From assembly GCF_024171895.1 (NCBI RefSeq), contig NZ_JAMTCQ010000008.1:992001-1056000 (forward strand): a stretch of 64,000 nt of DNA, read 5' to 3'. The position numbers and the translations under genes were made by a program. The notes under the pieces were generated by a model. The model had not been told where the DNA came from and did no database searches. It worked only from the letters and a program-made list of their open reading frames with translations. Below, in pieces: positions 4,801 to 56,400 of the stretch. The stretch comes from Prauserella halophila (lineage in GTDB: Bacteria; Actinomycetota; Actinomycetes; Mycobacteriales; Pseudonocardiaceae). Within the stretch, counting starts at the first letter, position 1, and each line of letters opens with the position of its first letter.

Positions 4801-6358
4801 GCCGCACCACGACATCTACTCGATCGAGGACCTCAAGCAGCTGATCCACGACCTGAAGAACGCCAACCCGGCCGCGCGCGTCCACGTGAAGCTCGTGTCC
4901 GAGGTCGGCGTCGGCACGGTCGCCGCGGGTGTGTCGAAGGCGCACGCCGACGTCGTGCTCATCTCCGGTCACGACGGCGGCACGGGCGCGTCCCCGCTGT
5001 CGTCGATCAAGCACGCGGGCGGCCCGTGGGAGCTCGGCCTGGCCGAGACGCAGCAGACGCTGCTGTCGAACCGGCTGCGCGACCGGATCGTGGTGCAGAC
5101 CGACGGTCAGCTCAAGACGGGCCGCGACGTGCTGATCGCGGCGCTGCTGGGTGCCGAGGAGTTCGGCTTCGCCACCGCACCGCTGGTGGTGTCGGGCTGC
5201 ATCATGATGCGCGTCTGCCACCTGGACACCTGCCCGGTCGGCGTGGCGACGCAGAACCCCGCGCTGCGGGAGAAGTTCAGCGGCAAGGCCGACTACGTGG
5301 TGAACTTCTTCGAGTACATCGCCCAGGAGGTGCGGGAGTACCTGGCGGCGCTGGGTTTCCGGTCGATCGCCGAGGCCGTCGGCCACGCGGAGCTGCTCGA
5401 CACCCGCGACGCCGTCGACCACTGGAAGGCCGAGGGCCTGGACCTGTCACCGATCTTCGAGGTGCCGGAGATCGAGCCGGGTGCCGCCCGGCACCAGGTC
5501 GTCGCGCAGGATCACGGCCTGGACTCGGCACTCGACAACACGCTGATCCAACTGGCCGAGGGCGCGCTGCGTTCCGGCGACCACGTCACGCTCGACCTGC
5601 CGGTGCGCAACGTCAACCGGACGGTCGGCACCATGCTCGGGCACGAGCTGACCAAGCAGTGGGGCGGCGAGGGCCTGCCCGACGACACGATCGACGTCAC
5701 GTTCACCGGCACGGCGGGCCAGGCGTTCGGCGCGTTCGTGCCGAAGGGCATCACGCTGCGGCTGCTCGGTGACGGCAACGACTACGTCGGCAAGGGACTG
5801 TCCGGCGGGCGCATCACCGTGCGGCCGCCCCAGGACTCGCCGGTCGTGGCCGAGGAGCACATCATCGCGGGCAACGTCATCGGCTACGGCGCCACGGGCG
5901 GCGAGCTGTTCCTGCGCGGCAAGGTCGGCGAACGGTTCTGTGTGCGCAATTCCGGCGCACTGGCCGTCGTCGAGGGTGTCGGCGACCACGGCTGCGAGTA
6001 CATGACCGGTGGCCGCGTGGTCGTGCTCGGGAGGACGGGCCGCAACTTCGCCGCGGGCATGTCCGGTGGCGTGGCCTACGTGCTCGACCTCGACCCGGTC
6101 CGCGTCAACGGCGAGATGGTCGATCTGGAAGGACTCGACGAGGAGGACGTCGAGGTCCTGCTCGAAGCGGTCGAGAAGCACTACACCGAGACCGGGTCGG
6201 CCGTGGCGCACACGTTGCTCACCGACTGGGAGTCCGCACTGCCGCGGATCACGAAGGTCATGCCCAAGGACTACAAGCGTGTTCTGCAGGCGAGCGCTCA
6301 GGCCGAGCGCGACGGCAGGGACGTGAACGAGGCGATCATGGAGGCGGCTCATGGCTGA
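1817..6358 (+). CDS. gltB: Glutamate synthase (NADPH) large subunit
   Basis: Large subunit of GOGAT, which makes glutamate from glutamine and 2-oxoglutarate. The 1513 residues contain the class-II glutamine amidotransferase domain (roughly 20-430), the central and FMN-binding synthase domains (about 450-1230) and the C-terminal beta-helix GXGXG domain (about 1250-1500). GTG 1817 is the start because AGGAGG lies 10 bases upstream; it leaves a 22-residue propeptide before the nucleophile Cys in HDACGVAF. The 3Fe-4S cysteines are seen as [15 protein letters not shown] near residue 1128. The gene ends in ...EAAHG and its stop overlaps an ATG (ATGGCTGA), as is usual where gltD follows directly, but here a duplication separates the two genes. 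Confidence 0.98.
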
Positions 6359-6445
6359 CCATCGCGGAGTTCACGGAGCAGCAGTCATGGACGCCGACCG
6401 GGCGTGGGTGTCCCACAAGACAATGGAGGCGGCTCATGGCTGACC
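6338..6445 (+). repeat. 23-bp direct repeat (6338-6360 and 6423-6445) flanking a 62-bp insert at the gltB/gltD junction
   Basis: The end of gltB, with its overlapping ATG, and the start of gltD with its ribosome binding site are the same 23 bases, repeated 85 bp apart. Each copy holds GGAGGCGGCTCATGGCTGAC. In the first copy it reads as the last codons and stop of gltB; in the second it is the Shine-Dalgarno and start of gltD. The simplest history is one overlapping junction that was split by an insertion duplicating its target. The insert, 6361-6422, ends in GGGTGTCCCACAAGA, also seen at the chlID/cobO junction. Confidence 0.9.
6351..6443 (+). CDS. Possible 30-residue junction ORF between gltB and gltD
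   Basis: ATG 6351 overlaps the gltB stop and opens a 30-codon frame that ends in MEAAHG, the same residues as the gltB C-terminus, with its TGA overlapping the gltD ATG. It begins MAD, as GltD does. The frame exists because the 85-bp duplication happens to link the two copies in frame. No product is recognised. Its likely effect, if translated, is to hand ribosomes from gltB to gltD. It may have no function of its own. Confidence 0.35.
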
Positions 6446-7890: not shown

Positions 7891-8001
7891 CCCCTGCCGG
7901 CGCGCACCGGCGCGGTGCAGCTGCGCAACGGCGGCGCGGTGCAACGACATAACGGCATAACGGAGCAGCGGCGCAACAGAACAGCGGCGCAGCTCGACAC
8001 C

Positions 8002-8052
8002 ACGCGGCGGGTGGGTGGGCGTTCCCGACGGAGCGCACGCCCACCCGCCGCG
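8002..8052. terminator. GC-rich hairpin after gltD
   Basis: Left arm 8002-8022 and right arm 8036-8052 (ACGCCCACCCGCCGCGT) pair over 17 bases with a 4-base bulge and a 13-base loop. It lies about 110 bases after the gltD stop. There is no U-tract, as is common for actinobacterial terminators, so termination is inferred from position and strength. Confidence 0.55.
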
Positions 8053-8071
8053 TGTTCTGCACTCATGCCCG

Positions 8072-8218
8072 CGTGTTGCGCTTTCCGGGGCCCGTGTTGC
8101 GTTCCCCGGGGCGCGTGTTGCGTTCCCCGGGGCCCGTGTTGCGCTTTCCAGGGTCCGTGTTGCGCTTTCCGGGGCCCGTGTTGCGCTTTCCGGAGCCCGT
8201 GTTGCGTTCTCCGGGGGC
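8072..8218. repeat. Seven-copy 21-bp tandem repeat
   Basis: CGTGTTGCG recurs at 8072, 8093, 8114, 8135, 8156, 8177 and 8198, exactly 21 bases apart, each followed by a variant of TTTCCGGGGCC or TTCCCCGGGGC. The period equals seven codons, so frames on both strands stay open across it, which produces long but unconvincing ORFs of heptapeptides (AQHGPRK on the minus strand). No ribosome binding site or known domain supports a gene. The same unit and period recur inside chlID at 18364-18447. Confidence 0.85.
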
Positions 8219-8314
8219 GTGTCCCCCGTCGGCACGCTGTCAGGAGGCGGCGGCCGACGATGTACGGCTGCAGAACACGCGGGGCTGAGTGCAGAACACG
8301 CGCGAGGACGCAGT

Positions 8315-8440: not shown

Positions 8441-8529
8441 GCGATGGTGGCTGGAAGCCGGTGAGAACCCGGCACGGTCGCGCCACTGTGATCGGGCACG
8501 TGCCCCGTAGTCAGACCCAACGCCATCGC
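8441..8529 (+). promoter_or_regulatory. Cobalamin riboswitch upstream of cbtB-cbtA
   Basis: The B12-box core is clear: GGAAGCCGGTGAGAACCCGG, then CACGGTCGCGCCACTGTGA, and the 3' element TAGTCAGACCC. The closing P1 stem pairs GCGATGG (8441-8447) with CCATCGC (8523-8529). It ends about 30 bases before the cbtB ribosome binding site AAGGAGG. Riboswitches of this class lower expression of downstream cobalt and B12 genes when adenosyl- or methylcobalamin binds, which fits the cobalt transporter that follows. Confidence 0.95.
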
Positions 8530-15469: not shown

Positions 15470-16806
15470 CGGGCCGCCCTCCGGTGCACCGCATCCGCGA
15501 ACGTCCGCGCCAGCTCGGGATGTCCCGCCCAGTGGACGTGCAGGTAGGACGCGTGCAGCGTCGGCGTCGCGAAGCCCTCCGCCTCGCCGTTCCATCGCCA
15601 CGCCGGTGTCGACCCCGCCCGCGGTTCGACCACGGTGCGGTGGAATTCGTGCCCGCGTGCCACATCGCCCTCGGCGGCGAGGACGTTGTCGCGGGCCGCG
15701 GTCGCCGTCCGGTAGCCGAGCGCGCCGCGCCGGGTCATCCGGGCCGTCGCGTCGAGCGCGCCGACCATCGGCAGCCCGTCCAGTTCCCGGCACAGGTACA
15801 GCAGGCCCGCGCATTCGGCCACCGCGGGCATCCCGCCGGAGAGGGCCTCGCCGATCGCGGTGCGCAACGGTGCGTTCGCCGAAAGCTCCTCGAGATGCGC
15901 CTCGGGGAATCCGCCGCCGAAGTACATGCCGGCACACTCGGGCGGCAGCGCCTCGTCCTGCAACGGATCGACGTCCACGACGTCGACACCGTGGGCTGCG
16001 AGCAACTCGACGGTCTCGGTGTACCGGAACGTGAACGCCTCCCCCGCCGCGGCGGCCACGACGGCGCGCGGTCCACTGTGGACCGGCCCGGGCGACCACG
16101 GCGCGGCCGTCAACCGCCGCGCTCCACGTGCGACCCGCAGGACGGCGTCCAGGTCGACCCCGTCCGCGATCCAGTCGGCCAGCTTGGGCAGCAACTCCCG
16201 CGCACCGGTCTCGCGCTCACCCGCGGGGACGAGCCCGAGATGCCTGCTCGGCGCGTGGATGTCGTCGCTGCGCCGCAGCGCACCCAGCACGGGAATCCCC
16301 GTCGGCGCGAGTGCCCCGCGGATCTCGTCCTCGTGCCGTTGCGAACCCAGCTTGTTCAGGATCACGCCGGCGAGCTCGAGGTCCGGGTCGTAGCGTGCGA
16401 ATCCCAATACCAGTGCCGCGACGCTCCGGCTCGCCGCACTCGCGTCGACAACCAGCACCACCGGCGCGTCGACGAGCCGTGCGACGTGCGCCGTGGACGC
16501 GTAGCCGTCGGTGCCGAGCGCACCGTCGAACAGGCCCATCACGCCTTCGATCACCGCGACGTCGGCACCGCTCGACCCGTGCTGCAGCAGCGGAACGACG
16601 CGGTCCTCGCCCTGCAGGAACGGATCGAGGTTGCGCGCAGGCCTTCCGGTGGCCATGGCGTGATAGCTCGGGTCGATGAAGTCGGGGCCGACCTTGTGCC
16701 CGGACACCGCGGTCCCGCGGCCGCGCAGCGCCGCCATCAGGCCCGTCGCGACGGTCGTCTTGCCGTGCCCGGACCCGGGCGCGGCAACGACGACGCGGGC
16801 TACCAC
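15466..16806 (-). CDS. cobB: Hydrogenobyrinic acid a,c-diamide synthase
   Basis: CobB amidates the a and c side chains of hydrogenobyrinic acid with glutamine and ATP before cobalt insertion in the aerobic route. The 446 residues show an N-terminal dethiobiotin-synthetase-like P-loop (APGSGHGKTTVATG), GHKVGPDFIDPSYH and VIEGVMGLFDG. The C-terminal glutamine amidotransferase domain has the nucleophile Cys in AECAGLLYLCREL and a late histidine in the ASYLHVHWAGHP segment. Its GTG start overlaps the cobO stop by 7 bases. CbiA of anaerobic pathways is similar, but the presence of CobN and CobG supports CobB. Confidence 0.94.
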   Translation of the reverse strand: MVARVVVAAPGSGHGKTTVATGLMAALRGRGTAVSGHKVGPDFIDPSYHAMATGRPARNLDPFLQGEDRVVPLLQHGSSGADVAVIEGVMGLFDGALGTDGYASTAHVARLVDAPVVLVVDASAASRSVAALVLGFARYDPDLELAGVILNKLGSQRHEDEIRGALAPTGIPVLGALRRSDDIHAPSRHLGLVPAGERETGARELLPKLADWIADGVDLDAVLRVARGARRLTAAPWSPGPVHSGPRAVVAAAAGEAFTFRYTETVELLAAHGVDVVDVDPLQDEALPPECAGMYFGGGFPEAHLEELSANAPLRTAIGEALSGGMPAVAECAGLLYLCRELDGLPMVGALDATARMTRRGALGYRTATAARDNVLAAEGDVARGHEFHRTVVEPRAGSTPAWRWNGEAEGFATPTLHASYLHVHWAGHPELARTFADAVHRRAAR

Positions 16807-17402
16807 TCGATGCCCCGCTGGCCCTTTTGCCCGGCATCCATCGGGTGGGTGACCTTCGACATCTCGGCGACGAGGTCGGCCGCGTCCACGAGGGCCTGCG
16901 GCGCGTTGCGGCCGGTGATCACCACGTGCTGGCGGCCGGGCCGATTCCGCAGTGTCTCCACCACGTCATCGACGTCGACCCAGCCCCAGTGCAGCGGGTA
17001 GGTGAACTCGTCGAGCACGTAGAAGTCGTGCGTCTCCTCGGCGAGCCTGCGCTTGATCTCCGCCCAGCCCTCACGAGCATTCTCGGCGTGGTCCTCGTCG
17101 GTGCCCTTCTTGCGGGACCAGCTCCAGCCCTCGCCCATCTTGTTCCACTCGACGGGCCCGCCCTGACCGGTCTCCCCGAGCGTGCGCAGCGCGTTCTCCT
17201 CGCCCACACGCCACTTGGCCGACTTGACGAACTGGAACACGCCGATGTTCCAGCCCTGGTTCCACGCCCGCAGCGCCATCCCGAACGCCGCCGTGGACTT
17301 TCCCTTCATCGGTCCCGTGTGGACGGCCAGGATCGGCCGGTTCCGCCGCTGTCGCGTCGTCAGTCCGTCGTCCGGCACCACGTCCGGCTTCCCCTGCGGC
17401 AT
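16800..17402 (-). CDS. cobO: Cob(I)yrinic acid a,c-diamide adenosyltransferase
   Basis: CobO (BtuR/CobA type) adds the adenosyl group to the corrinoid cobalt. It is 200 residues long with the P-loop HTGPMKGKSTAAFG and the conserved QFVKSAKWRVGEE and LDEFTYPLHWGWVD stretches, normal for the family. ATG 17402 begins MPQGKPD; the ribosome binding site GGAGGG is just upstream and lies inside a duplicated 19-bp junction sequence shared with the end of chlID. Longer in-frame starts exist upstream but enter the junction insert. Confidence 0.95.
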   Translation of the reverse strand: MPQGKPDVVPDDGLTTRQRRNRPILAVHTGPMKGKSTAAFGMALRAWNQGWNIGVFQFVKSAKWRVGEENALRTLGETGQGGPVEWNKMGEGWSWSRKKGTDEDHAENAREGWAEIKRRLAEETHDFYVLDEFTYPLHWGWVDVDDVVETLRNRPGRQHVVITGRNAPQALVDAADLVAEMSKVTHPMDAGQKGQRGIEW

Positions 17403-17515
17403 CAGGCCGCCCTCCGTTTCTTGCGGGACACCCTCCCCTGCTGTGGCGAAAAAGCGTGCCACAGCGGGGGCCCAACCCGGTCGGGCGTCCTGAACAACCC
17501 ACCGTCAATCCTCAT
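17402..17515 (-). CDS. Possible 37-residue junction ORF between chlID and cobO
   Basis: ATG 17515, directly after the chlID stop, opens a 37-codon frame ending in KKRRAA, like the chlID C-terminus VKRRAA, with its TGA overlapping the cobO ATG (TGATG). It arises because a 114-bp (38-codon) duplication joins two copies of the junction in frame. The frame crosses a strong hairpin (17434-17466). No known product is seen. The shape parallels the 30-residue frame at 6351-6443. Confidence 0.35.
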   Translation of the reverse strand: MRIDGGLFRTPDRVGPPLWHAFSPQQGRVSRKKRRAA

Positions 17516-17534
17516 TCAGGCCGCCCTCCGTTTC
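17402..17534 (-). repeat. 19-bp direct repeat (17402-17420 and 17516-17534) flanking a 95-bp insert at the chlID/cobO junction
   Basis: Each copy is TCAGGCCGCCCTCCGTTTC on the plus strand. One forms the end and stop of chlID; the other holds the cobO ribosome binding site and overlaps its start. Between them are 95 bases with a hairpin whose arms GCTGTGGC and GCCACAGC are extended by CCCC/GGGG (17434-17466). On the minus strand the insert has GGACGCCCGACCGGG and ends GGGTGTCCCGCAAGA, both nearly identical to blocks in the gltB/gltD insert. Confidence 0.9.
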
Positions 17535-19636
17535 ACCTCGTCGGTCAGCTTCTCGGCCGCCACGTCCCCGACGGCCACGTGCTCGGCACCGAGCCGGCCT
17601 GCCAGCGTCTTCGCCAGGCCGAGCCGCATGCGACCGGATTCACAGTCCATGACCACAGTGGACACCCCGCTGCGCGCCAGGCCGTCCGCGGTGGTGTGGG
17701 CACGCTGCAGCGCCTCGGGGCCACTGGTCGCCCGGCCGTCGGTCACGACGACCAGCAGTGGCCTGCGGTCGCCGTCGCGCAACGCCTCGACCCGCAGCAC
17801 CTCGGCCGCACGGGTCAGCCCTTCTGCTAGCGGCGTGCGCCCGCCGGTCGGCAACTCCTCCAGCCGTGCGGCCGCGACATCGACGCTGCCGGTCGGTGGT
17901 AGCGCCACCTGCGCCTCGGACGCGCGGAAGGTGACCAGCCCGACCTTGTCGCGGCGCTGGTAGGCATCCAGCAACAGCGACAGGACGGCGGTCTTCACCT
18001 CGCGCATGCGCGTTTTCGACCCCATCGAGCCGGACGAGTCGACACACAGCAGGACGAGGTTGCCCTCCTTGCCTTCCCGCCGGGCGAACCGCAGGTCCCG
18101 GGGCAGCACGACCGGACCGGCTCCGTCGGCGCGCGGACCACGCTGTGGTCGCTGCCGCGCCGCCGCCCGCAGCGTCGCGACGAGGTGCGGCGATCCGCTC
18201 CGCTCACCGTCCGGGCGGACGCCGACGATCCGGCCACGGTCCCCTTCGGCGCGGGAACGCCTGCCGTCCGCGCCCGCACCGGCGCCGTCGACGGTGAACA
18301 GCTTCGCCCGGTACGGCGTGTCCGTGCCGGCCCGCTGTTCGGTGTGTGGCTGGGCACCGTCGCCGTGTTCCGCGTCCGGATCGCCGTGTTGCGGATTCCG
18401 GGGCTCGTGTTGCGGGTTCCCGTTGCCGTGCTGCGGATTCTCGTCGGGCGCGCCCCCGCCGGGGCCGCCGTCAGGACCGTCGTCGTCGGGACCGTCACCG
18501 GGTCCGTCGTCATCGGGGCCGCCGTCGTCGGGGCCACCGTCGTCGGGACCGCCGTCGTCGGGACCGCCGGGACTGCCGTCGCCGCCGCTCTCGTCGTCCG
18601 GATCGTCGCTGTCCGGGTTCTGCTCCGGCGGCTCGGCGTCCTGGAGTGCCTGTTCCAGCTGCTCGGAGTCGATACCGGGAGCATCGAACGGGTTGCGCCT
18701 GCGCCGGTGCGGCAGGGCCAGCCTCGATGCGACGCGGATGTCCTCTGTGGACACGGTCGTGCGGCCGCACCAGGCGGCGTGGGCTGCGGCGGTGCGGGCC
18801 GTGACGATGTCGGCGCGCATGCCGTCGACCTCGAACGCGGCGCACACCTCCGCGATCTGCAGCAGCGCCTCGTCGGTCAGTTCCACCGACGGCAGCAGCT
18901 TGCGGGCCGCGGCGATCTCGGCGGCCAGCGCGGCGTCGTCGTCGGCGTATCCCGCAGCGAAGGCGTCCGGATCCGATTCGTAGGCCAGCCGCCGCCGCAC
19001 GACCTCGACCCGCTCGGCGGCGTCCCGGCTCGACGAGACCTCGACGGTCAGCCCGAACCGGTCCAGCAGCTGTGGCCGCAGTTCGCCTTCCTCGGGGTTC
19101 ATCGTTCCGATGAGGACGAACCGGGCGGCGTGCGAGACCGAAGCACCCTCCCGTTCGACCGTCACCCGTGCCATCGCCGCGGCATCGAGCAGCGTGTCGA
19201 CGAGGTGGTCGTGCAGCAGGTTGACCTCGTCCACGTAGAGCATCCCGCGGTGCGCGCCCGCGAGCAGGCCGGGCTGGAAATCGGTGACGCCGTCGCGCAG
19301 CGCACGTTCCAAGTCGAGCGAACCGACGACCCGCTCCTCGGCGGCCCCGACGGGCAGTTCCACCAGCCGGGCCGGCCTGCGGGACGACGGGACCGTCCGG
19401 TGTGGACCGTCGGGGCACGACGGGTCGGGCGCCGCCGGGTCGCAGGAGAACCGGCACCCGTCGACGACGTCCACATCGGGCAGCAACCCCGCGAGGGCGC
19501 GCACCATGGTGGATTTCGCCGTGCCCTTCTCGCCGCGCACCAGCACCCCGCCGATCGACGGTGAGATGGTGCACAACAGGAGGGCGAGGCGCAGTTCGGC
19601 CATTCCGACGACTGCCGTAAACGGGTACAGCCGCAT
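17516..19636 (-). CDS. ChlI-ChlD fusion type chelatase subunit, probable cobaltochelatase partner of CobN
   Basis: A 706-residue AAA+ and VWA protein: N-terminal ChlI-like ATPase (about 1-310; Walker A RGEKGTAKST, Walker B-like MLYVDEVNLL), an acidic linker (about 340-430) and a C-terminal VWA metal-ion domain (VDSSGSMGSKTRM). Such proteins power metal insertion into tetrapyrroles. With cobN in the same region and no photosynthesis genes, cobalt insertion into hydrogenobyrinic acid a,c-diamide is the likely role. The linker is repetitive: GPDD/GPDDG units (18481-18575), then NPQH-type heptapeptides from a 21-bp repeat (18364-18447). ATG 19636 is chosen; GTG 19642 is also possible. A B12 riboswitch precedes it. 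Confidence 0.88.
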   Translation of the reverse strand: MRLYPFTAVVGMAELRLALLLCTISPSIGGVLVRGEKGTAKSTMVRALAGLLPDVDVVDGCRFSCDPAAPDPSCPDGPHRTVPSSRRPARLVELPVGAAEERVVGSLDLERALRDGVTDFQPGLLAGAHRGMLYVDEVNLLHDHLVDTLLDAAAMARVTVEREGASVSHAARFVLIGTMNPEEGELRPQLLDRFGLTVEVSSSRDAAERVEVVRRRLAYESDPDAFAAGYADDDAALAAEIAAARKLLPSVELTDEALLQIAEVCAAFEVDGMRADIVTARTAAAHAAWCGRTTVSTEDIRVASRLALPHRRRRNPFDAPGIDSEQLEQALQDAEPPEQNPDSDDPDDESGGDGSPGGPDDGGPDDGGPDDGGPDDDGPGDGPDDDGPDGGPGGGAPDENPQHGNGNPQHEPRNPQHGDPDAEHGDGAQPHTEQRAGTDTPYRAKLFTVDGAGAGADGRRSRAEGDRGRIVGVRPDGERSGSPHLVATLRAAARQRPQRGPRADGAGPVVLPRDLRFARREGKEGNLVLLCVDSSGSMGSKTRMREVKTAVLSLLLDAYQRRDKVGLVTFRASEAQVALPPTGSVDVAAARLEELPTGGRTPLAEGLTRAAEVLRVEALRDGDRRPLLVVVTDGRATSGPEALQRAHTTADGLARSGVSTVVMDCESGRMRLGLAKTLAGRLGAEHVAVGDVAAEKLTDEVKRRAA
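18364..18447. repeat. 21-bp tandem repeat inside the chlID linker
   Basis: CGTGTT starts at 18364, 18385, 18406 and 18427 with a 21-base period, as in the intergenic array at 8072-8218. Read on the minus strand it gives NPQH-type heptapeptides. Shared unit and period in unrelated places suggest a spreading repeat. Confidence 0.75.
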
Positions 19637-19699
19637 GCACACTCCCTTGCTCGACGGCGGGTTTCCACGCCCACCGGGTTTCACACCACGCAAGCCCGC

Positions 19700-19795
19700 G
19701 GCCACCGAAGCTCTGACTTCCCGGCCTACCGGCCGGTCACAGTGGCGGGACCGTCCCGGATTCGCACCGGGTTCCACGACGACCGCTTCCTGCGG
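19700..19795 (-). promoter_or_regulatory. Cobalamin riboswitch upstream of chlID-cobO-cobB-cobC
   Basis: On the minus strand: TGGAACCCGGTGCGAATCCG, GGGACGGTCCCGCCACTGTGA, a GGCCGG-containing hairpin, then GGAAGTCAGAGCTTCGG. GAAGC (19789-19785) pairs with GCTTC (19711-19707) near the closing stem. It lies 65-160 bases before the chlID start, so the operon for cobalt chelation and adenosylation should be repressed by cobalamin. The divergent cobL starts at 19858, so the riboswitch transcript must start close to or within the cobL 5' region. Confidence 0.95.
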
Positions 19796-19857
19796 CATCA
19801 TCGCACACGTTCCACCGCCCGCGGGTGTTCGCCGCAACACAACTACCGTGGCTCAGC

Positions 19858-47162: not shown

Positions 47163-47444
47163 CTACTCCCCACGCGCCACCGCCGCATCAAACTCCTCCA
47201 ACCACGCACGAAAATCCGCTTCACCAAAAAGATAGCCGTTATTAGCCAGATTAGACGGATCTATTGTCGCACACCCAAAAAGCCAGTCCAAAGTATCCCA
47301 CACAAGCTCATCGTCTATCTCCGGAAGATCATCCAACGTAGCCCACGGCGCCGCCCAGCGATCGACCTCCTCCCGGGACCGGCGCCCTTCCAGCAAGTCC
47401 ACGATCGCCTGCCGCACTTCATCCCGACTCGGGACACTCACCAT
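47163..47444 (-). CDS. 93-aa immunity protein of the intact RHS toxin (copy 4)
   Basis: A 93-residue acidic protein (SRDEVRQAIVDLLEGRRSREEVDRWAAPW, DELVWDTLDWLFG). Its ATG 47444 overlaps the stop of the 3587-residue RHS protein (ATGGTGA), so it is translationally coupled to the toxin, as immunity genes of polymorphic toxins often are. Function is inferred from this position; the fold is not recognised. Confidence 0.8.
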   Translation of the reverse strand: MVSVPSRDEVRQAIVDLLEGRRSREEVDRWAAPWATLDDLPEIDDELVWDTLDWLFGCATIDPSNLANNGYLFGEADFRAWLEEFDAAVARGE

Positions 47445-50400
47445 GACCCCACCAACCTTCCTAGCTCGTCAAACCGGTAATGAGGCCCCTCACGGCCATC
47501 AAAATCGGGCCGCACCTGTCGGATCTTCCCACTATGGTCCACCGTCTCCATCCACGTCCGTTTGATATCCCGCACCGGATCCCATTCGCGAACCTTTCTC
47601 ATTCCTGCCATCTCGCCAGGGTTATTCGCAGGGCGGAGTTTGCGATAGTACCGGATTCTGCCGTCAGGGAGTTCGCGTGTAGCCGCCTTCCCGTATTTCT
47701 TCTGGAGGCGGCGGTGCTCCTTCAGGGGAGCACCTTCGGCCACGCTGGATGGGATCCCCGCACCCGGTTCGCATCCGGGCCCGGTGTTGTGGACGAGGAG
47801 GGCGAGGGTGTCCGCCTCCACGTGGTAGGTGTGGATGCCGTCCACGGTGAGGTTGTGGACTCGTTGGGTCCGCTGGGTGGTGTCCGTGTCCACCACCCGC
47901 ACCCGCTCGCCCTGGGCGGTGCGCAGCAGGTCGCCGGGTTCGATCTGCGAGGCCGCCAGCCACCGGCCCTCATCGTCGATCCAGAACGGATGCCCCTCCG
48001 TGGCGGTGACACTGCCCGTCTCGTCACCGGCGGGCCCGTCCGTGTCCACGGTGAGTGTCACCAGGCTCTTGCGTCCCGAACCGGTGATCACCTCGGTCAC
48101 CTCACGCGGGCCCTGCTCACCCGACTCCGGATCCGTGGCCAGCACCCGGTCGCCGCGCTGCACCTCCTCGATCGGCCGGCGCGACCCATCAGCCAACTCC
48201 ACCTCGGTCCCCGGCACGAAACTGTTCGGCCGACACACCGAGCCCGTGCCCCGCTTCGGCACGGCCGAGGGCAACCCCGCATCCGGACTCGGCGGCCCCA
48301 CCGACGGCACCGACGACCCCGACCGAGCCGGACCGGCCGACACCGACACGCGCGCAGCACCCCCCACACTGTCCGGCACGAACCGCGGCGCCGTCTTACC
48401 CGAGGCCGCCCTCCCCCCGACAACACCCAGATCGATCGTCGGCTTGTTCCGCAACCGATCCAGATGCCGCTGCACCCCCGGCGAGATCGCCACCGACTTC
48501 GGCGGAGCCGCCGCCGGCGTCAACGCCGCCCGACGCACCCGCGCCCGCCGCGCCGCCACCCGCGCCGCCTCCCGCGCCGCAGCCGCCGCAGCCGCCCGCG
48601 AGGCAGCCGAACCACCCGACGAGACCACACCACGCACACCCACAACCGCCGAGCGGCGCACCACCGACCGCGCCCCGGACCGCACCACGCGCCCACTATC
48701 ACGCCGGAACGACCGCTTCGACGGCCGCTTCGACGACGGCTTCGACGACCGCTTCGGCGACGGCTTCGCCGTCTTACCCGCCCCGACATGGCGCCTCGAC
48801 GACTGACCGACAGAACCGGCCTTACCACCCCCGACGACCTTCCGCGCACCGCGATAGCCGGCCTTGACCCCCTTCGCGATCTTGCCGACCGGCGTGAACC
48901 CGACAGCGAACGACCCGCACGAACCCCACGAACCACCAACGCAGCCCATGAAATCGTTGTAACCGGACATCTCCTTGGTCACCTCGACGACCCCGTCCCA
49001 GATCTCGCTCCAGAAGTACCCACGCGGATCGACCCGCGCCATCGGATCCCCACCCGCATAGGCATACCGATTCGCATTCCCCCCATCCCGCGGGTCCAGG
49101 GCCGCCGTGTCCCGCGAGGCGAACGCACCCGTCCCCGGCCGATACCACCGCGAGCCCATACTCACGTTGCCCGAGCCCGCATCGGTGAACTGGCCCTGAA
49201 ACCCCACATCCGGCTGCGCCCCGCCGGACGCGGTCACCGCACCGAACGGACCGAAACTCCGCGAACCCGCCAGACTCCCCTCAGCCGGATCAAGCACCCC
49301 GACCAGATCCGTGTGCCGATCCGACCACGCGATCCCACCAGCGGCACCCAGCGAGTCACCGCCCGGCGTGTAGGTGTAACTGCTCGACCCGTCCGAGGCG
49401 ATGTCCAGGCTCTTACCCACATACGACAGCTGACGCTCGCCGGCGTTCACGAGCCGGTTCAACGCGTCGTACGAGTAGCTCGTGCCACCGTCCGAGACCA
49501 GCTCGTCGAAGGCGTTGAACACCACGTCGGTCGTCTGCCCGCCCTGTGTGCGAGAGGACAGCGTGCCGCGCGCGGTGTACGAGTACGACGTGTCCCCGAA
49601 GGACAGCAGCTGGTTTCGCGCGTTGTAGGTGGCCGACTCATCACCACGCTGAACCAGGTTCCCGGCAGCGTCCCACTCGTAGTTCGTCGTGGAGGACCCA
49701 TCACTCCACGAACCGAGCCTGCCTGCCCGGTCGTAGGTGTAGGTATTCTCCGCCGCCCCGGCCACGCCGGTCGTGGTCTTCGAGGCGAGCCGGCCCGCCG
49801 GACCGTACCCGTACGAGATCGACCCGATCTGGCTTCCACCGCCGTCGGTGACCGTGTCCCCGAGCAGCCGCCCCGACTCGTCGTACTCGTACGAGCGGGA
49901 CGCGCCGTCCCCGTAATCCACGGTCGATATCCGACCCGCCTCGTCGTAGCCGTAGGAGGCGGTGGTCCCGGACACCGGATCCGCCGCCGAAGCCAGCCTG
50001 CCCGCGGCGTCGTAGCCGTACTCCACGGTCCCCGCATCGGTGACCGCCTTGGTCAGCTGCCCGCCGTCATCCCAGGAGAACTCGGTAGAGCCGGACGGAC
50101 CGTGTGCCGCGACCACATTGCCACGGTCGTCGTACTCATACGTGTTCTCCCCGGCCGGGGCCGAAGCGCTCAGCATCCGCCCCGTCTCGTCGTAGGTGAA
50201 CTCCCGATCCGCGGTGGCGGCCTTCGCGCCGGTGGCCGTTTGGCTCACCAGATTGCCCATCGGGTCGTACGAGTTGTTGATCGTCACGCCACCCGGCTTG
50301 GACAGGCTCGACACGTTGCCGCGCTCGGTGTAGGCGACGGTGTAGGTGCGATCGGCCTGGTCCGGTGTCTGCTCGGTGGCCGGTTCGATCGTCGACTCGG

Positions 50401-53400
50401 TCAGACCCCACGAGTTGGCCGTGAACACCGTGGCGTTGCCGTTGCCGTCGGTGGCGCGGGTCAGGTTCCCCGCAGCGTCGTAGCCGTAGCTCCTGGTGAT
50501 CGAGGTGTCCCCGTCCACCGGGCGAGTCACCGCGCGCAGCTGGTCGTACGCGTCGAACTCCCGAGTCGTGGTGTGCCCGAGCTCGTTGGTGCTCTCGGTC
50601 CGGTTGCCCGCACGGTCATAGCCGAAGCTTCGGGTGGCCAACACTTCGCCGTCCGAAGCCACATCGGACTCCGACGTAACCCGGCCGGCGTTGTCGTAGG
50701 AGAAGCGAGTGGTTGCCGTCGCCGGATCGCTCACCTCCACCGGACGCCCGGCAGCGTCGTACTGTGCGGTGATTTCCGTACCAGCGGCGTCGGTCATCGA
50801 CACCGGATCGCCTTGGTCGTTGTGCACCAGGGTGGTTGCCCGGCCCGCAGGGTCGGTCCTCGTCGCCAGATTGCCCAGATCGTCGTAGCGGAACCTCGTG
50901 GTGAGTGCCTGCTCCGGAGAAGGCTCGCGTTCCACCACGGACTCGGTGATCTTGCGACCCAGCTGATCGTAGGTGGCGTGCGTGCGCGCGCCGTTCGCAT
51001 CCCGCACGGACAGTTGCCAGCCGGTCGCCGTATACGTCGCGGTCGTGACCCCGCCTGATCCGTCGCCGGACAAGGACGGATCGATCTTCTTGCGCTGGTT
51101 GCCCAGCTCGTCGTACTCGAACTTCGTGGTGTGCCCGGCTTCGTCAGTTCCACTGGACACCCGCCCGGCGGCGTCGTACGACGCCGTGGTCGTGGCGGTG
51201 ATCGGCTGATCGGCGCCCGGAGGAGTATACGACGGGCGTGTCGTGCTGGTCTGCCGTCCGGCTCGGTCGAAACCGTGGCGCGTGACATCGCCGTTCGGGT
51301 CTTGCTCGGCGACAACATCACCGAACGTGTTGTATCCGGTCTTGCTCACCGGCCGCGAGGTCGACGGTTGTTCACCGTTCGACTCCACTTGCACAGCAGG
51401 ACCGGTCGCACTGATCTCGCGTCCGAGCCGGTCGTACTCGTACTCTGTGGTGAACTTCGCCGGGTCCGCTCCCTCCGCGGTACCGCGTGGATCGGTGACG
51501 CTGACCAGCAGGCCACGTTCGTCCCGCTGCGTCGTGGTAACCAGGGTTTCGCCGCCGCCCGGATGGACGGTCTCCCGGATCGTCTCGCCCACGGCATCGT
51601 AGGCATAGTCCGTCCTCGTCAGCTGATCGCCGGCCGCGTTCCGCTCGATCACCCTGGACGGGTTGCCCAGTTCGGTGAACCGGGTACGCGTGGAGCGCAG
51701 CTCCTCATCCCCGTCATAGTCGGTAGTCCGGTAGGCACGACCGCCCGGGTCGTACTCGGTCACCGTGGAGTATCGGCCCTGTCCCCGCGTTTCCTTGGTG
51801 ACCTTGCCGTGCCCGGTGTAGGCATAGCTGCTCAGCAGCAGGTCGCGGGTCTCGCCGGTGTCCGGATCCTCGTAGCCGACAAGATGCTCCGTGGCCTTCA
51901 ATCCGTCGTTGTAATAGGTGTACGCGGTGGTGTTACCCATCGCGTCGGTCACCTCGGCGAGTCTTCCCGCCGGGTCGTAGGCACGGGATTCAAGGACCAC
52001 GTCACGCCCGGTTCCGCCGTCCCCGGTGAAGTCATGGACGGTTGTGGTCGCCAAGCGGTGTCCGTCGGCAGTGTAGGTATAACTGAACACCGTTCCGGCC
52101 TTGGTGGTCCGCCGCTGCACCTCGCCGAACTGGTCGTGGGTAACCTGCTCGGTACCGCCTTCCGGGTCGGTGACCGTGTTTCGTCGCCCCAGCTCGTCAT
52201 AGCCGTACTTCGTGGTACGAGACGGATCATCTCCAGCGATGTCCTCGACGGTCGAGGACGCCAGTCGCCCATGCGCGTTGTAGTTGTTCACCAAGCGCCG
52301 TTGGTGCGGCTCATTGGTGATGGGATTGGTCACCTGCGGATCTGTCTCGGACAGTATGCGGCCGGCCGCGTCGTAGTCGAACGTGGTCCGCGTCGTCTGC
52401 CCGGAGCTGGCGGCCACGACCGATTCCTGTGTCACCCGGCCGAGCCCGTCGTGGCTGTACTCGGTAACCAAGCCCACGGGGTCGGTCTCGGATACCCGGT
52501 CTCCCGCGCTGTTGTAGGCGTAGCTGGTCTCTCCGCCCTTCGGATCCGTCATTGTGGCCAACAGTCCGGGCGGCTGGGTTCCGCCATCCGGTGCTGATTC
52601 CGTGCCGTCGGTATAGGTTCGGGTTTGCGACAGCTGTGCACCATTGCTGGCGTCGGGAGACTTGATCTCCGTGATCTGCCCGGTGCTCGTGTAGCTGTAG
52701 GTGGTGAGATACCGCCCGTCGCCCTGTCCGGCCGACCGCGCATCCCGGAACTCGGTGACCTTGTCGTTGCGCGGGTCGAGCGGATCGTCCTCGTTCAGGA
52801 AGTACGACCAGTAGGCGGTGTAACACGCTTCGGTGTTGTCCGTGCGGCAACGAGTGCGGGACAGCCGGTTGCCCCGTTCATCGTGCCGCAATCGGGTCAC
52901 GTGGCCGTTCTCGTCGCTGATGGTGCGCACGAACCCGCCGGCGTCGTAGCTGTACACCGTGGTTCCGCCACCCGGATCCGTCCGGGACACCAGTCTGCCG
53001 CCACGTGTCGGATCGTAGGTTCGACGCGTGACATTCCCGGCGGGATCGGTCACCTCCACACTGTGCGCGGCCACACTGGCGGCGTAGTGCTTGGATACCT
53101 CGGCCGAGCTCAGCGCGCGACGGTACATGGCGACCTCGCCGATCGACCCGTCGAAGTAGGACCATGCTTCGTCCGGACGCGCCGGCCAGTCCGGCCCCTG
53201 GGTCATCTTGCCGGTGCCGACGAAGTGGTGCCGCCGCCTGCTGTCGATCTCGCCCTTCTGGCGCCCGACCTCGTTGCCGTCCAGGTACAGCCACTGCCAG
53301 TCCAGGTTCGCGGTGAGCGCGACGTGATGCCACTCGCCGTCGTTGACCGTCTCGTCGGTAACGATCCCTTTCGCCTTATCGTTCCAGAGATGCCCGTACA

Positions 53401-56400
53401 GCCTGCCGTCTGTTCCGACATAGAGGATGGGCATCGCGCCGGGGGTTTCCGTATCCCCGGGCAACGAGTCCGCATTGGACAGCAGGACGCCGCCGCCGTC
53501 GGAGCTGGTCTTGAACCACAACTCGAGGGACGTACGGGTGCGGTTCTGCACCAGCCCGTCCGGAAGACGGACGTAGGAGTCCGCTCCGTTGAATTGTGCG
53601 GCTCCTGCCGAGTTCATCGCAGGCACGGCGTCGCGACCCACATTGTGATAGGCACCGTGGGAGAGCGCCGGATCCGATTCCGCTCTGAGTGCGGACGACT
53701 TCTCTTCCAATCCCCACAGGGCGAGCGGGCCGCTGTCCCGTACCGCGTTCCGGTAGTCCGCGCGACCGCCCCGGGCGGTGTAGTGGGTGCTGACCTCATC
53801 CGCCGAGACCGGCCGTTGATACAGGGCGACCTGACTGATCGCCCCGTCGAAGTGCCCCCAGGCGTCCGAGGGCCGCTCCGGCCAGCCAGCAGTTGTCACC
53901 ACACCGGCTCCGACGTAGGCATGCAAGTAGCGTGTCTGGATCTGCCCGGACTCACTACCCACTTTCGCGCCATCCAGGTACAGCGTCTGCTGGTTCCTCG
54001 TGGCCGACAGCGTTACGTGGTGCCACTGGCCGTCATTGACGGCGTCCGAACTGGCGATTCCGGACACTTCACCGTTCCAGAAATGCCCGTACAGCTTGCC
54101 ATCGGTGCCCACATACAGAGCCGGAGTCGACCCGGTTTCGCTGATCTCGTCGCCAGGGCGAAAGTTGCCCTGGGAGAACAGTACGCCGCCCTCATCCGAG
54201 CTGGTCTTGAACCACAGCTCAACAGACATCTCGTTGTTGGCACTGGCCGCGTGCATCGGCAGTGTGACCTTGGCTTTCTCCCCGTCGAACTGCCGTGCCG
54301 ACGAGTCGGGCAGTGGTCCCGACACGCGCGTGCCAACCTTGGCGTAATAGCTGGCCCGGCGCAGCTCCGGTTTTCCCCCCGCCCGGTCACCGCTCGATTC
54401 GTCCAGCCGCCAGTACGCGTCCGGTCCCGACCGAGTCACCGATTCGCCGAATCGATGGCCGTCCCCCTCGACGCGCGGCATGCCGATCTGGTGCGTCCCG
54501 CCATTGGCGTCGGTGTACTCCGTCACGCGCGAGGTGGCGTTGTCGTAGCTGATGCTCGCCTTGCGCACATCACCGGACTCGGTCACCGACGTCAGGCGGT
54601 CCGTAGCGGCCCGCGCCGCGTGGTGTTCAGCCACCGTGGTGGGACCGAGAGGACGCTGGTAGACGGCGACCTCGCCGATCCGCCCGCTGAAATTGCCCCA
54701 GCTGTGTTCCGGACGAGCAGGCCAGTCCAAGGTCGTCACGACGCCGGCGCCGATGTAGGCATTCCCGTAGTAGTCCCGGACGCGTCCGTCCTGCGAACCC
54801 ACCTTCTGCCCGTCCAGGTACAGGGTCTGCGAATCCGGCTCGCTGGAGAGCACGACATGGTGCCACTGACCGTCGTTGACCGCGTCGCTGGTCGATATCC
54901 CGGCGACATTCCCGTTCCAGAAATGCCCGTACAGCTTGCCATCGGTGCCCACATACAGCACCGGAGTCGACCCGGTTTCGCCGATCTCGTCGCCAGGGCG
55001 GAAATTGCCCTGGGAGAACAGCACGCCGCCTTGGTCGGCGCTGGTGTTGAACCAGAGTTCCACCGCGCGGTACTCGGAGTCGTGGACCGGGTTTCCGTGC
55101 AGCTTCACGTAGCTGGACGTGCCGTTGAACTCAGCCGCGCGAGAGGGAACGTCCGTGAGCGGCCCCTCGCGTCCCAGTTCTACGTCCGAGTAGTCCGCGG
55201 TCCGATCGGACCAGTATCCCGGTTGTTCGCTGTCCGCGGTCTCACCGGACGTCTCGGCAAGCCGCCAGTATCCGTGCGGATTGGCATCCAGTGTGGTCGG
55301 GCGATACTGCCCACCCTGCTCGTAGCCGTAGCTGGTGCACACACCGGTCGGGTCGCATGCGGATACGAGACGATCGCCGGTGTACTCGTAACTCCACGTC
55401 GCCGCGGGCTCCGGTCCAGTGGTGACCCCCGTGACGTGCCCATCCGAGAAGCTGAAGTCCAGGTACCGGCCTGAAGCCTCGTCGGTGGCCCTGCTCAGCT
55501 GTCCCGAATCGTCGTAGTCGAGTTTCTGGTTGCGCCCGGCAGCATCAGTGATCCTGGTCAGGTGACCGGACTCATCGAACCGGTAGGTCGTTCCGCCCTT
55601 CGCGCGGAGTACCCAGTCCCCGGAGTCGGTTACCAGGGTAGCCGACTCACCGGCCGGGGTGGCATAGCTTCCGTCCGGGTTCTGCCCGTAACGCACCTGC
55701 CGTCCGTCCGGATAGGTCACCACCACGTTTCCGGAGCCGTCGTCGTCCGGTACCACCCGCATGTCCCAGCGGGTGGTCCAGCCCGAGCCGAACACCAGAT
55801 CACCACGCGGATCCAGGCTGTTGTAGGTGCGGCGCACCGACAACGCCGGACCGGCGGTACTCACTTCCGCATCGGTGTCGGCTCTGGTGTAGTTGCCCAC
55901 CCCGGGATCAACGTCGCTGTCGGCGTCGGATGCCGACGCCAGCCTGCTGGTGATCGCCGGTTGCGCCACTCTGGTGTTCAGGTAGGCAGCACGCGTCCAG
56001 CGGCTGGAGTCCTTGCCATCGGTGATCCGGCCTTGCCACGAATAGGTTTTCCCCCAAGACAGGGTGTCGTCCGGGACGGACCAGACTCCCTCGTCGAGCC
56101 AGCCGGAGGACGTGCAGTTGTCCCCGCCCTCGTCACAAATCCGGAACTCGTACTGCAGGCCATCCCCCGGCCAGTCGTCCCTGTCCTGTCCTTCCAGCAA
56201 CAGAGTGGGGGTGAGTGAACCCGCGTCGTAGTCGCTCGGCGGCGACATCGACTCGACCTCGGGAACCTGGTTCGGGATGGTGAGCTTCACCTTTGCCGAC
56301 ATCGGCACGTCGTTCCACGAGAATCGGGTCTCTCCCCGCTTGGCCATGTCCCAGCGAATCGTGTAATCGCCCGGTGGTAAGGACTTCACCCGCGCATCAA

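Follow-up and report, generated by a model that had tools for sequence, protein, structure and literature searches.

What separates chlID from cobO in the genome of Prauserella halophila, and how did it get there? The last 19 bases of chlID (GAAACGGAGGGCGGCCTGA, minus strand) occur a second time at the start of cobO, and the two copies, 114 bp apart from start to start, are identical. The downstream copy supplies the ribosome-binding site of cobO together with a TGA that overlaps the cobO ATG. Within positions 17300-17700 of the window (the whole stretch of DNA that was analysed, 64,000 nucleotides long), this was the only direct-repeat family reported. We propose that the junction most likely harbors a small mobile element, belonging to a family of Pseudonocardiaceae and Nocardia, which inserted between the two genes recently, as judged by parsimony. 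No protein of the element's own is visible.

Table 1. Features at the chlID/cobO junction and the sister insertion at gltB/gltD (positions are those of the window)
Feature	Position	Strand	Evidence
Target-site duplication, upstream copy (chlID end, GGAGG and stop codon)	17516..17534	-	Exact 19-nt repeat; single copy in six empty sites
Target-site duplication, downstream copy (ribosome-binding site; TGA overlaps cobO ATG at 17402-17400)	17402..17420	-	Exact repeat; empty sites
Inserted mobile element, 95 nt, long-hairpin form	17421..17515	-	Absent from orthologous junction in 6/6 congeners; dispersed family
Hairpin H1, 5' arm (end of upstream duplication and first four insert bases)	17512..17526	-	Fold; duplex (L023, -21.3 kcal/mol)
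Hairpin H1, 3' arm ("guide"), complementary to 5' arm, 14 pairs, one G.A mismatch	17483..17497	-	Duplex, fold, family-wide permutation test
Hairpin H2, long form, CCCCGCTGTGGC-N10-GCCACAGC-A-GGGG	17435..17469	-	Fold; paired changes by eye
Mini-ORF, 37 codons and stop, from ATG after chlID stop to TGA overlapping cobO start	17402..17515	-	Translation
chlID-type cobaltochelatase subunit gene, ORF as listed	17516..19840	-	TIGR02442 (NCBIfam); ORF list
cobO, cob(I)yrinic acid a,c-diamide adenosyltransferase	16800..17402	-	TIGR00708 (NCBIfam)
AdoCbl riboswitch upstream of chlID, within 5' part of listed chlID ORF	19698..19786	-	RF01482, 52.9 bits
gltB/gltD insertion, short form (duplications 6338-6360 and 6423-6445, element 6361-6422)	6338..6445	+	Repeat list; family match; junction empty in G001, G004

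A first-pass annotation, made from the sequence alone, had described the 19-base repeat with its 114-bp period and a 37-residue frame linking the chlID stop to the cobO start. Both held; the product of this frame is MRIDGGLFRTPDRVGPPLWHAFSPQQGRVSRKKRRAA*. The likeness that had been seen between its KKRRAA end and the VKRRAA end of chlID held only in the sense of duplicated DNA read in one frame. The strong hairpin placed at 17434-17466 exists and belongs to the mobile element (H2 in Table 1). Its proposed role in modulating cobO remains an unsupported suggestion: we found no intrinsic terminator or sigma-70-type promoter within 17200-17800, and there are no expression data. As to the riboswitch-controlled operon in which this was thought to happen, an AdoCbl riboswitch was indeed found upstream of chlID. 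The listed chlID ORF of 774 codons overlaps it (window 19627-19840, minus strand). Since the TIGR02442 match begins only at residue 72, the true chlID start probably lies near 19630, downstream of the riboswitch. NCBIfam also names a cobB gene. A second AdoCbl riboswitch is present elsewhere in the window (8441-8529, plus strand, 51.8 bits).

The upstream repeat and the insert together (114 nt) fold with -53.5 kcal/mol (z -2.21), and 4 of 200 shuffled sequences fold as well. In the long-form stem, GCTGTGGC/GCCACAGC, paired changes could be observed by eye among related long-form copies (CTGTGG/CCACAG, CTGCGG/CCGCAG, TTGCGG/CCGCAA). Rfam 15 has no family over the insert at the gathering score; when matches with E up to 5 were admitted, the sole one in the insert region was sR38 (17510-17572), with 13.7 bits against a gathering score of 50. 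A Pfam domain search of three mini-ORF products at E up to 1 gave nothing.

For comparison within the genus we used seven genomes, and the cobO start region could be located in all of them. In the six others the chlID/cobO junction is GAGGTGAAACGGAGGGCGGCCTGATGCCGCAGGG-like, with a single copy and no insert. The first-pass annotation had named a spacer present in all relatives as the finding that would refute an insertion, so the insertion reading is supported. Because all six congeners have a single-copy, insert-free junction, parsimony makes it likely that the element inserted recently and duplicated 19 bp of its target. It is possible, as a caveat, that an empty site also results from recombination between the two duplications.

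Eight of nine other insertion sites queried were read in the same genomes (L062 was left out). Elements L063 and L044 are absent from all six other genomes, and so is L060, but the junctions there differ more. No full L037 element is found in the five readable others (the sixth was unreadable), L068 is absent from four of four readable genomes, with altered junctions, and L051 from both of the two looked at. At the L042 site one genome is without the element and one has a degenerate version; L077 is absent from one genome and shortened or degenerate in four. From these mixed states we conclude that decaying shared insertions coexist with fresh ones. Another copy of the own genome, L104 (about C4:440372-440461), is degenerate and lacks the H2 core; it is shortened in G001, G002 and G005, and G004 has none. 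No mobilising enzyme was found, and transposition was not seen.

A covariance model built from eight copies of the own genome found nine matches there below E 1e-8, with the next match at 0.02. The seven genomes of the genus yielded 62 matches at E 0.001, 2 to 17 per genome, the 17 being those of G006. Six matches to the core pattern occur in the own genome, all of them in elements. Beyond the genus, a Pseudonocardiaceae sample had matches in 69 of its 297 genomes, spread over 22 of 46 genera (E 1e-5). Only 17 of 397 genomes matched in a sample of the order (E 1e-6); two of these lay outside the family, both in genus g65. In a sample of the class, model R2 matched 3 of 394 genomes at E 1e-5, two of the own genus and one of g65. 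An exact search for the core gave two matches in Nocardia vermiculata, and on these rests the identity of g65, which we take to be Nocardia. According to NCBI taxonomy, Prauserella and Amycolatopsis belong to Pseudonocardiaceae and Nocardia to Nocardiaceae. The large samples were run with stricter filters and few candidates were scored per genome (12, 8 and 11 for family, order and class), so copy numbers and absences in them are soft.

The anatomy of the family was studied in 148 copies at 118 loci, which fall into 56 junctions when grouped by their outer flanks. For the second copy set, 60 stretches were picked from the best matches of the family sample. Rows dropped on the way were, from 74 matches, two of L015 (the same record as L040) and a cut-off copy of L066; from 82, two partial matches; and then L081, L025 and L193_365. 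L011/L201 and L013/L212 are apparently the same records, so that three copies are counted twice; the junction-level tests use one copy per junction. In an initial clustering into 46 groups, tandem copies had drawn unrelated loci together, and the outer-flank grouping was used in its place. Tandem arrangements are found at 27 of the 118 loci. At L019 of the own genome (C4:53146-53298), for example, two copies follow each other with a period of 77, and there is no third duplication after the second.

The family is found between genes. At 110 of 118 loci, the first start coincides with the end of an upstream ORF that has 60 codons or more; the stop of this ORF lies one base into the start codon (80 loci) or five bases after the first base of that codon (22), both being common overlaps. 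Eight loci have no upstream ORF by this criterion. On the downstream side, an ORF of that minimum length opens immediately past the array at 106 loci and is missing at 12, and both co-oriented ORFs are present at 99. At random RTG sites taken from the same strand of 58 longer loci, the corresponding counts were 94 of 870 upstream, 526 of 870 downstream and 55 of 870 for both; on the other strand, both ORFs were met at 42 of 870 sites. Upstream and joint placement are thus far above background, whereas the downstream criterion is lenient and says little alone.

The duplication starts at about the GGAGG and extends past the start codon, which lies within it in 118 of 148 copies. In 65 of those 118 it measures 13-23 bp; most others are longer, partly by way of tandem copies, and many duplications over 24 nt were read as products of such copies. 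Among 44 junction representatives with a duplication of at least 13 bp, 32 have identical sequences on both sides. An insertion duplicates roughly the segment from the Shine-Dalgarno sequence to the start codon, so that no stop is lost from the upstream gene and the downstream gene still has a ribosome-binding site and a start.

The element body begins with a 5' consensus near ANNATYGCGG, followed by a loop, the guide and GACCGGGTGCGGGTGTCCCGCAAGACA. It takes part in two hairpins: H1, formed by the internal guide and the upstream target copy, and H2 near the 3' end, which in the family reads GCGGG-TGT-CCCGC. Seven of the 56 junctions have both short and long forms. Covariation in H2 is limited. 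In alignment A3, one pair has both of its bases replaced in 4 of 80 distinct rows, and none of 500 shuffles reaches that; when the count is of such pairs or of pair types instead, 92 of 500 shuffles do no worse. The alignment was fitted to the H2 structure, and the signal rests on one pair. In 97 short cores this pair is C-G 92 times, T-A four times and T-G once, with the changes confined to two junctions.

Most copies also contain a mini-ORF running from the first start to a stop that overlaps or abuts the second. Closure at that point is seen in 95 of 114 copies. Among the junction representatives, 38 of 44 close there (p 5e-13 when compared with one third) and the remaining 6 do not. The 3' core shows conservation at each of the three codon positions, the non-consensus cells numbering 41, 84 and 47 at positions 1, 2 and 3 (97 distinct cores). 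Since this variation is not concentrated at third positions, the constraint on the core is likely one on the nucleic acid and not on the peptide, and we read the frame as preserved for coupling, the bases themselves for structure. The alternative that it is the peptide which is conserved is unsupported, third positions being no more variable than others. At three loci (L037, hisF/hisI-like, in G006; L098, the same site in G004; L044, miaA-like, in G004; names by eye), the downstream gene opens, past the last duplication, with an element-like 5' half (GCGACAATCGCGGAGC, GCGAGGATGGCGGAGC and GTGAGGATCGGGGGC), an appearance that would fit a decayed copy turned N-terminal extension.

The guide is matched to its own target. 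The pairing involves roughly 12 bases of the element, those preceding GACCGGG, and on the other side the spacer and start codon in the upstream copy of the duplication. In the window copy this pairing had escaped the first-pass annotation. Over 56 junctions, the mean duplex energy is -19.2 kcal/mol for a guide with its own target and -12.3 kcal/mol when guides are exchanged between junctions, and none of 10,000 permutations reaches the former; for the spacer alone the values are -6.5 and -4.6 kcal/mol (again 0/10,000). The same test on the initial 46-group clustering agreed (0/10,000). When only the 32 junctions with identical duplications are used, the difference persists for the whole arm (-20.0 against -12.4 kcal/mol; 0/10,000) and for the spacer (-7.2 against -4.9; 0/10,000). 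The specificity is, however, statistical and not absolute. At 38 of 56 junctions at least one guide from another junction pairs better, at 18 none does, and the median rank of the true guide is 2. Part of the pairing is common to all, because many targets share GGAGG...RTGA, and shuffled guides still form 9.9 pairs per element compared with 11.9 for the true ones. The non-Watson-Crick cells of the upper stem (53 junctions) comprise 31 G.U, 6 A.C and 25 other mismatches. The G.U share is 0.84, against 0.68 with shuffled guides. This excess over A.C tips the balance towards pairing as sense-strand RNA, though the support is only moderate since the shuffled control already has 68% G.U. In the literature searched, from which subscription papers were mostly missing, a target-matched segment with a long duplication is not described.

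A sister insertion lies in the same window at gltB/gltD, where a 23-nt exact repeat recurs 85 bp apart. The claim that the chlID/cobO insert is of the same kind held, the inserts of both junctions being members of one family. The gltB/gltD site is filled in G000, G002, G003, G005 (g1), G088, G020 (g15), G054 (g4) and G081 (g44), and empty in their congeners G001, G004, G109, G058, G009 and G049, so that each of the four genera has filled and empty members; G006 has a different short insert there. We read this pattern as the result of separate insertions, but loss by recombination between the duplications would also leave empty sites. By flank similarity, L173 (G063) and L218 (G077) are family copies at chlID/cobO, tandem and with different arms, and chlID/cobO may therefore be a recurrent insertion site. 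Two other repeat-containing regions were observed in the window. An array of 21-bp units (CGTGTTGCGTTCCCCGGGGC-like) at 8001-8302, surrounded by strong inverted repeats, is outside the mobile-element family, and an ORF of 3587 aa at 47438-58201 (minus strand) has a few internal 27-nt repeats and perhaps encodes a giant repeat protein.

How might such an insertion be tolerated? We infer, without expression or reinitiation data, that ribosomes finishing chlID would reinitiate on the mini-ORF and then on cobO by means of the overlapping or abutting stop and start codons. Coupling would survive in this way, and the insertion would be tolerated. H1 may mask the start left over in the first copy, and an unidentified enzyme acting in trans is presumed to move the element. 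Survival of harmless insertions could explain site, orientation and frame, but not by itself the matched arm.

Two explanations of the matched arm remain, and the evidence does not separate them; we hold them to be equally good. One is guided insertion, in which the element finds its site by pairing. Taken by itself, we lean slightly against it. That the match is there at birth is suggested by the junctions with identical duplications, which match as strongly as all junctions, and by the mix of filled and empty gltB/gltD sites in four genera. A bolder version, no more than possible, is that the 12-nt arm acts as RNA and recognises the spacer and the start codon where two genes overlap, that the element inserts there with a duplication restoring both genes, and that it settles anew at the same junction in other genera, as at gltB/gltD, where four genera each have filled and empty members. 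New target specificity would arise as the arm drifts.

The other is that complementarity arose after insertion, by rapid selection for a hairpin that conceals the spacer and start codon left behind in the first copy, with guide mutations fixed site by site. This too falls a little short of being the better bet. At an ABC-transporter junction, a start ATG goes with a guide CAT (L018) and GTG with CGC (L034, L048). At another junction that two copies share, the target sequence GGAC goes with GTCC in the guide of L056, and GAAC with GTTC in that of L057; common descent of that insertion is not established. Guides common to different junctions (L051 and L060; L200, L204 and L207) suggest that the guide travels with the element, and L063, absent from all six other genomes, is imperfect just upstream of the start. 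However, the match is equally strong in the 32 junctions with identical target copies, and the window copy, with a 19/19 duplication and six of six congeners empty, already has its 14 pairs with one mismatch.

A third possibility is fold-back copying, in which the strand growing during insertion turns back on itself, so that a stretch of target is written into the element as the matching arm. L012 and L035 have contiguous 12-bp matches to their own targets, and by eye the guide of the chlID/cobO copy (L023) has no close match among the other listed copies. However, it seems unlikely, as L063, L051 and L060 are not exact complements, and L051 and L060, at two junctions of one genome, have one guide despite different targets.

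It could also be argued that the family is a true MIRU, that is, the mycobacterial element or its direct descendant. MIRUs are short mobile repeats at start codons, with an internal ORF coupled to the downstream gene by overlap (PMC12548453), and their 77-bp units occur in tandem between two co-oriented genes (PMC4213456), which recalls the tandem loci described above. Against this, models R1 and R2 matched only Pseudonocardiaceae and one other genus (397 genomes of the order at E 1e-6, 394 of the class at E 1e-5, Mycobacterium presumed to be sampled), and the present element has a long duplication, a matched arm and H2. We regard a true MIRU as highly improbable. Finally, a repeat made locally by tandem duplication or slippage, with no mobile element involved, or an attenuator kept for cobO control, would fit the exact repeat and the strong hairpin but is virtually ruled out by the same kind of insert at 56 junctions with non-matching outer flanks, by the six congeners lacking it here and by the absence of a terminator-like site.

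The small mobile element that we favor can be set beside several known systems. Our literature search turned up papers on MIRUs, MITEs and Rickettsia palindromic elements, and no title resembling the present family. Like MITEs and REP/ERIC-type elements, it is small, dispersed and structured, without a transposase of its own, and it meets the MITE expectation of a target-site duplication on insertion. It differs from both in the length of the duplication and in its co-oriented junction placement. A MITE with inverted termini, as MITEs are defined (PMC10969869), was ruled out by the lack of terminal inverted repeats: in 56 representatives the longest terminal match was 3.9 nt, against 3.6 in shuffled sequences. 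Rickettsia palindromic elements, of about 150 bp, are frame-keeping insertions integrated in genes (PMC10969869). The present insertions likewise preserve reading frames, but they are found between genes, not in them, and bring a mini-ORF of their own.

Group II introns (EBS/IBS) and the guide sequences of IS200/IS605 pair with the target beside the insertion point. In an element as small as ours no intron domain or transposase was seen (Rfam being the only dedicated model search), and the element makes a target duplication, which sets it apart from both. The resemblance is one of working only, by analogy. If it is true that the arm directs insertion, the element would be a mobile one guided by nucleic acid, very small in size and moved by an enzyme still unknown.

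The closest likeness in habit is to MIRUs, on whose range papers differ: they have been assigned to "many mycobacteria" (PMC12548453) or only to M. leprae and the M. tuberculosis complex (PMC4213456). Both kinds of element are inserted where one gene stops and the next starts, and both have an internal ORF that is coupled to its neighbor. MIRUs target short DTGA sites, duplicate only a few bases and are not known to have dyad symmetry. In the present family, by contrast, the ribosome-binding site and start are a target duplication (19 and 23 bp in the window), one arm is complementary to the element's own target, the H1 and H2 hairpins are formed, and the hosts differ. Because two defining features of MIRUs are absent here and the sequences have not been compared, we do not file the family as MIRU. 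The family illustrates a way in which small ORFs and N-terminal extensions may be added to operons, and it offers clean empty sites and fresh copies, with a target-matched pairing arm as a new ingredient. In our view it appears to be another answer, besides that of MIRUs, to the problem of living inside operons without breaking them.
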